From IMG/VR virus record IMGVR_UViG_3300027851_000023, positions 1 through 64,000 of that record: a DNA stretch of 64,000 nt. One strand, written 5' to 3'. Shown piece after piece: positions 20,775 to 23,990 of this stretch. Numbering within the stretch: the stretch's first letter is position 1; the number at the start of each line of letters is the position of its first letter. This DNA comes from a virus. The notes under the pieces are model-generated. The model saw nothing but the letters and a program-made list of their open reading frames with translations, had not been told where the DNA came from and searched no databases. Both the position numbers and the translations under genes were made by a program.

Positions 20775-20797
20775 TATTCACGCCAAACGTGACAACC
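20775..20797 (+). promoter_or_regulatory. dispersed motif upstream of the MazG-like gene
   Basis: TATTCACGCCAAACGTGACA followed by ACC, 16 bases before ATG 20813. Confidence 0.55.
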
Positions 20798-20812
20798 CCT
20801 TTCAAGGATTCA

Positions 20813-21406
20813 ATGATGACCCGGATCAACGGCGAAATGATCGCCCAACTCTGTGCTGACGTTCATGCCGACAATGTTGCCGCCGGTTGGTGGTCGGACT
20901 TGTCGACGGGCAAGCGCATCGATCGCAACGTCGGCGAACTGCTGATGCTGATCGTGTCGGAAATCTGCGAGGGCGCAGAGGGCCTGTCCGGCAACCTGAT
21001 GGACGACAAACTGCCCCATCGGAAGATGATCGAGGTCGAACTGGCGGACTTCGCTATCCGGCTGTTCGACCTGGGTGGTGGCCTCGACCTGGCGACAGGC
21101 ATATCGGAGCAGTTCGACAACATCTGTGCTGGCGATGCCGTCACCGAGGCGTTTGGCTATTATGGCAGTCAGGGAATCCTGCTGCGCATGATCCGCTTCG
21201 TCAGCGCGGCCATGGAACACCACCGGAAGGGTCGAACGGCCGAGATGTGCCGCCCCCTGGCCATGGCGCTGCACGGAGCCGTACTGCTCGGCAGCACCTT
21301 TGATCTGCACATCATGGACGCCGTCGCTGAGAAGCGCGCGTTCAACGCCATCCGTGAGGATCACAAGAAGGAAGTCCGGCAGCTGGCGGGCGGGAAAAGC
21401 TATTGA
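20813..21406 (+). CDS. MazG-like nucleotide pyrophosphohydrolase
   Basis: 197 residues from ATG 20813 (AAGGA five bases upstream); an earlier in-frame start overlaps the regulatory motif. LIVSEICEGAEGL and later IEVELADFAIRLFDL give the Glu-x3-Glu...Glu-x2-Asp metal-binding pattern of the all-alpha MazG/dUTPase-like fold. It probably hydrolyses a nucleoside triphosphate, protecting the phage nucleotide pool or lowering alarmone signals. A second MazG-like gene is at 30024. Confidence 0.75.
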   Translation: MMTRINGEMIAQLCADVHADNVAAGWWSDLSTGKRIDRNVGELLMLIVSEICEGAEGLSGNLMDDKLPHRKMIEVELADFAIRLFDLGGGLDLATGISEQFDNICAGDAVTEAFGYYGSQGILLRMIRFVSAAMEHHRKGRTAEMCRPLAMALHGAVLLGSTFDLHIMDAVAEKRAFNAIREDHKKEVRQLAGGKSY

Positions 21407-22393: not shown

Positions 22394-22581
22394 TGTCGCA
22401 GACGACACCAAAACTATCAGCGAAAGCGAAGGGTCTAGTGACCCGAGCCATCAATGGCGGTGCAAATCTAACCTGGAAGGGTTCACAGCACCCCGACGAC
22501 TGGGCTCACATCGAACGGCAGGCCGAGCAGACACGCGCCAAACTGGAAGAGTACATCGCCGGTCTGGAAGCAACCCGATGA
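22393..22581 (+). CDS. small basic-then-acidic helical protein
   Basis: 62 residues. It starts SQTTPKLSAKAKGLVTRA and ends in a charged helix (IERQAEQTRAKLEEYIAGL). It overlaps the thymidylate synthase start (ATGA). The function is unknown. Confidence 0.6.
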   Translation: MSQTTPKLSAKAKGLVTRAINGGANLTWKGSQHPDDWAHIERQAEQTRAKLEEYIAGLEATR

Positions 22582-23990
22582 TCGCCGCTCACCCTGCCTT
22601 GAGCAGTCACCCGGAGCAGCAGTATCTCGACCTGCTCCGTACTTTGCTAACCTCGACGGATCGCCCGGATCGCACCGGGACGGGCGTGCGCGGCATCTTC
22701 GACTACCGGATGGAGTTCGACCTGGCGCACGGCTTCCCGCTGCTGACCACGAAGAAACAGTTCTTCAGGGGAATGGTTACCGAAATTCTGTGGTTTATAT
22801 CTGGATCAACAGACGTTCGGGTTCTCCAAGAACAGCGCGTCAACTTCTGGGATTCGTGGCAGGGCGACGATGGTACGATCGGCTATGGTTACGGCAAGCA
22901 AATGCGGAATCAAGAGTTTTGGACCGCTCTGACGCCCAAGGTATACGAGCCTGAACCATGGGACGATGTTGTCGAGGTTCGTTCCGTGTATGGTGTTGGC
23001 TACTACGGGTGCGACGATAAGAAAGATCCGTTCTACCAAATCCTCGTTGACACTTGGCGCCAGATGCTGCGTCGTTGTTACGACTCTACGTCGCTTTCAT
23101 TTAACGCCGGATATGGTGCGAACGGTGTCCATGTGGATAACCGCTGGCATTGCTTTGCAAACTTTCAATCCGACGCCCGGAAGTTGCCGAACTGGCCGCT
23201 GAAGGCAGAGTTTCCCAGTCAGTATTCGATCGACAAGGACACCCTCTGGGCCTCCAACCGCTATGCTCCGCACACTGTGATGTGGGCGTGTGATCAAACA
23301 CAGAACGCCAACCGCTGCAATACGGCGTTTTTCACTGCTGTCGATCCTGCCGGAAACACCAAGTGGATGACCTCAATAGGAAGTACGAAACGAGACTATG
23401 ACTTAAACGTCAGTGCCGTACATCGCTGTCTCAATGGGAAACTACGCACTCACCATGGATGGTCGGACTTCCAGTATATCGAATGTCCGCCAGGGCAGGT
23501 TCTGCGCTACATGCGCGTCGACCAGTTGCTAAATCTGTTCTGCGGATTGAAGCACGAGCCGTTCGGTCGCCGCCACATCATGACGCTTTGGAACCCCGGC
23601 GACCTTGGTCGCACTACGCTCCCGCCCTGCCACGGTAGCTTGGTTCAGTTCTACGTTGAGAACGATGGTCGCCTGAGCCTGAAGATGAATCAGCGCAGCG
23701 CTGACGCGTTTCTGGGCCTACCGGTAAACATCGCCAGTTACGCCCTGCTGCTGACCATGTTCGCCAGTGCGCTCGATCGTCAACCTGGCCGGTTCATCTG
23801 GGATGGCGGCGACGTGCATCTCTACTCGAACCATGTCGAGCAGGCCCAGGAGCAGGTCTCGCGTGTGCCGAGGCCCTTCCCGCAGCTGGCGGTCGCCAAG
23901 CGTCTCGATTTGGACTCCTGGTCGATCGGCGACTTCACCGTCACCGGTTATGAGCCCCACCCACATATCGCGGGAGATGTGGCCCGATGA
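22578..23990 (+). CDS. thyA: thymidylate synthase with in-frame inserted HNH-like domain
   Basis: 470 residues; ordinary ThyA is about 265. Residues 1-111 (RPDRTGTGVRGIFDYRMEF, GFPLLTTKK, ILWFISGSTDV, NFWDSW, YGYGKQMR) and 308-470 (VDQLLNL, FGRRHIMTLWNP, LPPCHGSLVQFYV with catalytic Cys351, QRSADAFLGLPVNIASYALL, DVHLYSNH) are a complete enzyme that methylates dUMP to dTMP. Residues ~112-307 are a foreign insertion (see separate entry). No stop or frameshift interrupts the frame. It probably supplies dTMP for phage replication, if the insertion is spliced out or tolerated. Confidence 0.88.
   Translation: MIAAHPALSSHPEQQYLDLLRTLLTSTDRPDRTGTGVRGIFDYRMEFDLAHGFPLLTTKKQFFRGMVTEILWFISGSTDVRVLQEQRVNFWDSWQGDDGTIGYGYGKQMRNQEFWTALTPKVYEPEPWDDVVEVRSVYGVGYYGCDDKKDPFYQILVDTWRQMLRRCYDSTSLSFNAGYGANGVHVDNRWHCFANFQSDARKLPNWPLKAEFPSQYSIDKDTLWASNRYAPHTVMWACDQTQNANRCNTAFFTAVDPAGNTKWMTSIGSTKRDYDLNVSAVHRCLNGKLRTHHGWSDFQYIECPPGQVLRYMRVDQLLNLFCGLKHEPFGRRHIMTLWNPGDLGRTTLPPCHGSLVQFYVENDGRLSLKMNQRSADAFLGLPVNIASYALLLTMFASALDRQPGRFIWDGGDVHLYSNHVEQAQEQVSRVPRPFPQLAVAKRLDLDSWSIGDFTVTGYEPHPHIAGDVAR
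22911..23502 (+). mobile_element. homing-endonuclease-like insertion in thymidylate synthase
   Basis: About 195 codons inserted between the YGKQMR and VDQL motifs. VRSVYGVGYYGCDD, YQILVDTWRQMLRRCYDS, NGVHVDNRWHCFANFQSD and SIDKDTLWASNRYAPHTVMW match phage HNH homing endonucleases. DPAGNTKWMTSIGS to LNGKLRTHHGWSDFQYI resembles a NUMOD-type DNA-binding module. GC is visibly lower than the flanks, and the low-GC tract extends about 140 bases into the upstream exon, as expected from co-conversion during homing. No intein splice motifs (N-terminal Cys block, C-terminal His-Asn) are seen. Confidence 0.7.

Follow-up and report, generated by a model that had tools for sequence, protein, structure and literature searches.

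The thyA gene considered here, at positions 22578-23990 (+), lies in a stretch of viral DNA of 64,000 nucleotides (nt), which corresponds to positions 1 to 64,000 of the IMG/VR record IMGVR_UViG_3300027851_000023 and is referred to below as the window. It encodes a thymidylate synthase (ThyA) with an in-frame segment resembling HNH-type homing endonucleases, in a single uninterrupted frame of 470 codons (470 amino acids, aa) with zero stops. The Pfam profile of ThyA (PF00303, E-value 1.4e-84) matches the protein in two stretches on either side of a middle segment, which itself matches PHROG 2081 'HNH endonuclease' (E-value 3e-31) and, just below the curated cut-off of 27 bits, the I-HmuI NUMOD-like family PF22083 (E-value 1e-5, 25.3 bits). 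By homology to E. coli ThyA and to phage relatives, the insert spans residues ~110-313 (about 22905-23516, a length divisible by three), with YGKQMRN before it and VDQL after it. In its flanks the ThyA motifs PPCH (with the catalytic Cys), QRS, NIASY and GGDVHLYSNH are all intact. The parts of the gene are as follows:

22578-22904 (+): N-terminal part of ThyA, exon-like segment 1 (residues 1-109, ending in YGKQMRN), delimited by PF00303 and alignment with E. coli ThyA and the relatives
22746-22904 (+): inner part of segment 1 with lowered GC content at third codon positions (GC3), a probable co-conversion tract arriving with the insert
22905-23516 (+): HNH/NUMOD homing-endonuclease insert at site A (between YGxQWR and xDQ), in frame, about 204 codons, recognized by PHROG 2081, PF22083 and comparison with 30 further ThyA genes
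22905-22985 (+): N-arm of the insert, opening with a predicted beta strand (residues 112-118)
23043-23312 (+): HNH-type nuclease core (W..ML.RCY ... W..F.NF ... DKD ... Y.P.T..W), assigned by PHROG 2081/953/374, selection in relatives and the AlphaFold model
23232-23240 (+): DKD motif, residues 219-221
23331-23477 (+): NUMOD-like DNA-binding domain, in structure resembling the C-terminal part of I-HmuI
23478-23516 (+): C-arm of the insert, a predicted beta strand ahead of the re-entry into ThyA, with a conserved Arg
23517-23987 (+): C-terminal part of ThyA (residues 314-470; PF00303), with PPCH, QRS, NIASY and GGDVHLYSNH

When the insert was shuffled by bases, 4 of 20000 shuffles were free of stops in the thyA frame, and therefore its openness over 609 nt in this frame is not due to chance. 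The other five frames hold 4-12 stops each. Together with the ORF (open reading frame) and the profile matches, these counts agree with a preliminary description of the locus, which had reported an HNH-type insertion lying in frame and without a stop between ThyA blocks. Its remarks on base composition were also borne out. The insert is indeed lower in GC (GC3 0.61, p = 8e-5 against outer exon 1 plus exon 2), and the low-GC tract does extend into the upstream exon, where GC3 falls from 0.84 in outer exon 1 to 0.60 in the last 159 nt (Fisher p = 0.009). This upstream tract is best read as a probable co-conversion tract. The 65-kb virus record yielded neither a ThyX nor any further ThyA.

Searches with single-protein queries recovered few relatives, while alignment queries recovered many. 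We compared 31 distinct ThyA-HNH genes, the window included. Site A, which follows YGxQWR and is the one occupied in the window, holds the insert in 18 of them; in the other 13 the insert is found at site B, which lies between W(D/N)EW and GDLGPVYG. The window gene and one other (L069) were automatically labelled 'B' owing to an edge effect of the hidden Markov model; alignment and the insert tree place both at site A. The carriers are phages, one plasmid (of Paenarthrobacter) and two bacterial chromosomes (Calidithermus chliarophilus and Hymenobacter ruricola). Named phages among them are Bacillus phage 015DV002, Klebsiella jumbo phage KP13-7, Vibrio phages D69/D148/D181 and Tenacibaculum phages PTm1/PTm5, and about 22 carriers are IMG/VR contigs. 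Nearest to the window is IMGVR_UViG_3300035436_000128 (L008), with inserts 57-59% identical. An SH3-like part of the N-arm is present in L008 and in two further relatives (L020, L002) and is missing from the window copy. Existing annotation of these genes is piecemeal, either as 'thymidylate synthase' or as 'HNH endonuclease'. Gp25 of phage PAU and a gene in LR756502 have long ThyA loops in which no HNH motif was recognized on reading by eye, and both were excluded from the set.

The distribution of the insert is sporadic. Of 120 Hymenobacter genomes 116 gave a thyA match, and H. ruricola alone among these 116 carries the insert. Within the Calidithermus family it is present in one of about 20 thyA genes, that of C. 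chliarophilus, and a sample of about 390 further Bacteroidota genomes lacked it. For three pairs of occupied and empty alleles we compared the exon sequences after removal of the insert, with positions counted from the junction. In H. ruricola, identity to congeners is 0.65-0.75 between -120 and +120 nt and about 0.9 beyond. In the Calidithermus pair the diverged exon tract reaches from -90 to +60 nt. In Bacillus phage 015DV002 compared with 015DV004 it reaches from 0 to about +140 (identity 0.60-0.67 over 0 to +120, against 1.0 upstream of the junction and 1.0 again past the tract), and the remaining flanks are almost everywhere 97-100% identical. The tracts directly seen in the three pairs are 60-140 nt long with sharp edges. 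Co-conversion tracts left by homing have been described for td (PMC2988022), and the sharp diverged flanks seen here carry the signature of homing with co-conversion. Sporadic occupancy of one site, with an empty-site allele in near relatives, is likewise as in homing elements. The preliminary description had named one finding that would speak against an unusual insertion, namely that the segment is a normal, conserved domain of homologous synthases; other synthases do have the segment, but their sporadic carriage of it and the homing scars show a different picture.

Phylogenetic trees were consistent with this mobility. The insert tree splits sites A and B on one starred branch and requires a single change of site, compared with a mean of 10.2 after shuffling of the labels (0 of 500 shuffles as low). 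In the exon trees the site labels are scattered, and 13 and 11 changes are needed. Insert-bearing exons are starred sisters of insertless exons, and the inserts of C. chliarophilus and H. ruricola, which belong to different phyla, are starred sisters of each other. By these trees, the inserts track the insertion site and the host exons do not.

At the protein level, the insert is under purifying selection in the thyA reading frame, as judged from pN/pS values (nonsynonymous to synonymous differences) of 0.08-0.29 between L020 and L022 in every part of it, both short arms included. AlphaFold modelled the whole window protein with a mean local confidence (pLDDT) of 89.7 and a global score (pTM) of 0.86, with both insert arms as strands. 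The ThyA part of the model superimposes on E. coli thymidylate synthase over 262 residues at 1.1 A (Z 36.9), and in a structure search the NUMOD part matched I-HmuI (1u3e; Z 8.5, 54 residues, 1.0 A); a sequence search of the PDB with the insert profile gave no useful match. In the predicted structure the ThyA fold is intact and the nuclease protrudes from it.

The two bacteria bear on the function of the chimeric gene. C. chliarophilus and H. ruricola have no ThyA besides the chimera and no ThyX; control genomes matched both families. The Calidithermus ThyA-HNH gene occupies the native thyA locus and has the same neighbours as in the insertless congener. Free-living bacteria require thymidylate. 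Therefore, the chimeric gene must produce an active enzyme, whether or not splicing takes place. The two bacteria are presumably independent of scavenged thymidine.

Based on these observations, the insert is very probably a homing endonuclease that is mobile and is maintained within ThyA as a tolerated domain, without being spliced out; of the readings offered in the preliminary description, the tolerated domain insertion is the one supported, with the addition that the domain is mobile. In our model the nuclease ORF sits in frame within a surface loop of ThyA, its two ends meeting as beta strands. A single chimeric protein would be translated, with a ThyA part that still folds and is active and an HNH/NUMOD domain protruding from it. 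The nuclease could act as the chimera, or after internal initiation or proteolysis. It would recognize insertless thyA near the insertion site and cut or nick it, and in the repair that follows, the occupied copy would serve as template, so that the new host receives the insert together with 60-140 nt of adjoining exon. We infer that the nuclease is active and specific for its target, that the insert is retained in the mature protein and that the window's own copy is active. That these genes represent a distinct class of mobile element also seems reasonably likely, albeit less so. Such an element would be a homing endonuclease with its own beta-strand arms, placed in frame in a loop of an essential enzyme and never spliced, leaving the enzyme active, and it would home between phages and into the chromosomes of different phyla, in two families each tied to its own ThyA site.

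Several points weigh against this interpretation. The canonical catalytic His of HNH nucleases appears to be Lys in the DKD motif, so that catalysis is not assured; DKD is invariant in 31/31 ThyA inserts, in place of D-H-x, and it also occurs in free-standing HNH relatives. The approximately unbiased (AU) test on the exon tree did not reject a single clade of site-B hosts apart from the site-A hosts (p 0.47); the case for repeated gain is built on the pairs of starred sisters and on the comparisons with empty sites. No close insertless relative of the window gene was found, and for this reason the window's own co-conversion tract is deduced from GC3 only. The ThyA-HNH gene in L021 (2366-4002) has a frameshift in the N-arm, by decay or assembly error, and unless it is an assembly error it would break an unspliced ThyA. 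Finally, it is formally conceivable that both bacteria scavenge thymidine.

The alternative that survives best is a domesticated accessory domain, in which the HNH/NUMOD part serves as a DNA- or RNA-binding regulator or as a weapon against competitor thyA and is kept for the benefit of the phage rather than for homing. Purifying selection on the insert would fit such a role, and a report on phage PhiPA3 describes an intron endonuclease that acts as a weapon against a co-infecting phage (PMC11620839). A relic retained in Krischvirus also fits: the td gene of RB49 (L015, 1507-2739) keeps an eroded HNH in frame at the same ThyA loop (E-value 6e-16), with DKD changed to DSD and the NUMOD gone. An RB49-type in-frame relic is seemingly common to many Krischvirus records. 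However, the sporadic distribution, the co-conversion scars and the invasion of chromosomal thyA point to current or recent mobility, and we regard domestication in place of homing as unlikely, although the two are not mutually exclusive. An in-frame eroded copy as in RB49 is the expected outcome for an insert that never undergoes splicing and whose nuclease degenerates once homing stops.

Less probable still is that the window thyA is a dying gene, inactivated by the insert in a phage that depends on the thymidylate synthase of its host. The loss of the SH3-like part and the fast divergence of the window exons (a long branch) could be taken as signs of decay, but the active-site motifs are intact, the frame is kept through two large exons, the comparison with L008 shows a purifying pattern, and two bacteria have a gene of this architecture as their sole ThyA.

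The preliminary description had also considered an intron with a full-length open frame, and it had proposed a covariance search for an intron core. In this reading, an intron of group I (or another type) would by chance have an ORF that runs on into the exons at either end, and the HNH part would be removed as RNA. Endonucleases carried by introns typically show homing and co-conversion, introns are known to target td/thyA, and PHROG 2081 HNH proteins reside in group I introns of the DNA polymerase genes of Bastillevirinae (PMC11878797). With the group I model RF00028 of Rfam, two positive controls were detected, in thyA of Bacillus phage KKP_4048 (L017, 2055-2312, 67 bits) and in the IMG/VR contig L066 (3846-4176, 58 bits); both introns contain stops and are located at the YQR|S site of phage thyA. 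Short-region scans with the same model gave no group I intron in the inserts of the window, Calidithermus and 015DV002. Rfam scans of the window region and of eight whole loci were also negative, but the whole-locus scan missed the known L017 intron, and therefore only the short-region scans count. The L066 gene serves as an internal control, since its HNH insert is in frame and its group I intron lies apart from that insert. Moreover, the arms are too short for an intron core and are under coding constraint, the shortest inserts have only about 160 nt outside the nuclease, the degenerate insert of RB49 is still in frame, and 30 inserts open over their full length at two sites would be a strange coincidence. 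Together with the purifying selection, this makes an intron very improbable.

An undescribed intein-like element spliced at the protein level, the remaining proposal of the preliminary description, would be stop-free and in frame in a conserved part of an essential enzyme and could have conserved N- and C-arms as here, but it is the least credible of all readings, since arms of ~25 aa and ~15 aa leave no space for a Hint domain, Pfam gave no Hint match, the conserved first Cys/Ser/Thr, terminal His-Asn and +1 Cys/Ser/Thr of inteins were not found at the insert junctions (in agreement with the lack of intein splice motifs reported initially), and in the predicted model ThyA is folded although the insert is still present.

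A homing endonuclease without a splicing partner already has precedents. The lone LAGLIDADG in an actinophage DNA methylase (Taj_79 and relatives; PMC9957025, PMC11855218) is likewise a homing endonuclease lying in frame within an enzyme in which neither intein nor intron is detectable. That system differs in its LAGLIDADG family, its restriction to one phage cluster, its apparently vertical inheritance and its dispensable methylase, and neither empty-site scars nor cellular occurrence are reported for it. The ShiLan domain (PMC11855218) is also a stop-free, patchily distributed insertion in a phage enzyme with an HNH and no splicing element found. Its HNH, however, is out of frame to the methylase and its in-frame reading is disordered, whereas the ThyA HNH is in frame and is predicted to fold as a domain. 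In the window the HNH lies in the thyA frame and the other frames contain stops, unlike a hidden out-of-frame HNH of the ShiLan type.

Thymidylate synthase genes are also entered by the td/thyA group I introns with I-TevI or I-BmoI, again with exon co-conversion, but those endonucleases are of the GIY-YIG type and are encoded in self-splicing introns elsewhere in the gene, with ORFs unfused to both exons. In phage Aeh1, MobE splits nrdA (PMC2988022), so that an HNH resides in an essential enzyme of nucleotide metabolism that works without splicing; there the enzyme is divided into two polypeptides, while ThyA-HNH is one. The WHO elements at yeast FBA1 (PMC7282813) similarly home without splicing into an essential metabolic gene and replace the flanking exon, but they are intein-derived LAGLIDADG elements located downstream of the gene and not within the enzyme. 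I-HmuI and the PHROG 2081 HNH endonucleases belong to the same domain family as the ThyA insert and differ in being separate ORFs, intronic or free-standing, and in that the ThyA insert has the motif DKD. A full-text literature search, with most subscription papers and all preprints outside its reach, found no paper on an in-frame HNH domain in ThyA. What is new is that an HNH domain is grafted in frame into an essential enzyme, along with the two site-specific families, the co-conversion scars and the chromosomal sole-enzyme cases.

Homing endonucleases in essential genes are usually explained by self-splicing introns or inteins, which render the insertion harmless. The ThyA-HNH genes suggest that splicing is dispensable and that an endonuclease can survive as a grafted enzyme domain, even in the sole thymidylate synthase of free-living bacteria. 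This would be a simple route from mobile nucleases to built-in enzyme domains, with the Krischvirus td as a decaying example. Caution is advisable in annotation, as genes labelled just 'thymidylate synthase' or 'HNH endonuclease' may be ThyA-HNH chimeras.

Further observations concern other genes. In two contigs (L049, 2761-3945, and L050, 1843-3027) an HNH ORF of the free-standing type continues stop-free and in frame into an activase of anaerobic ribonucleotide reductase resembling NrdG. In the window, a MazG-like pyrophosphatase is encoded close upstream of thyA (20789-21403), and phage DNA polymerase, primase-helicase, terminase and tape-measure genes are also present.
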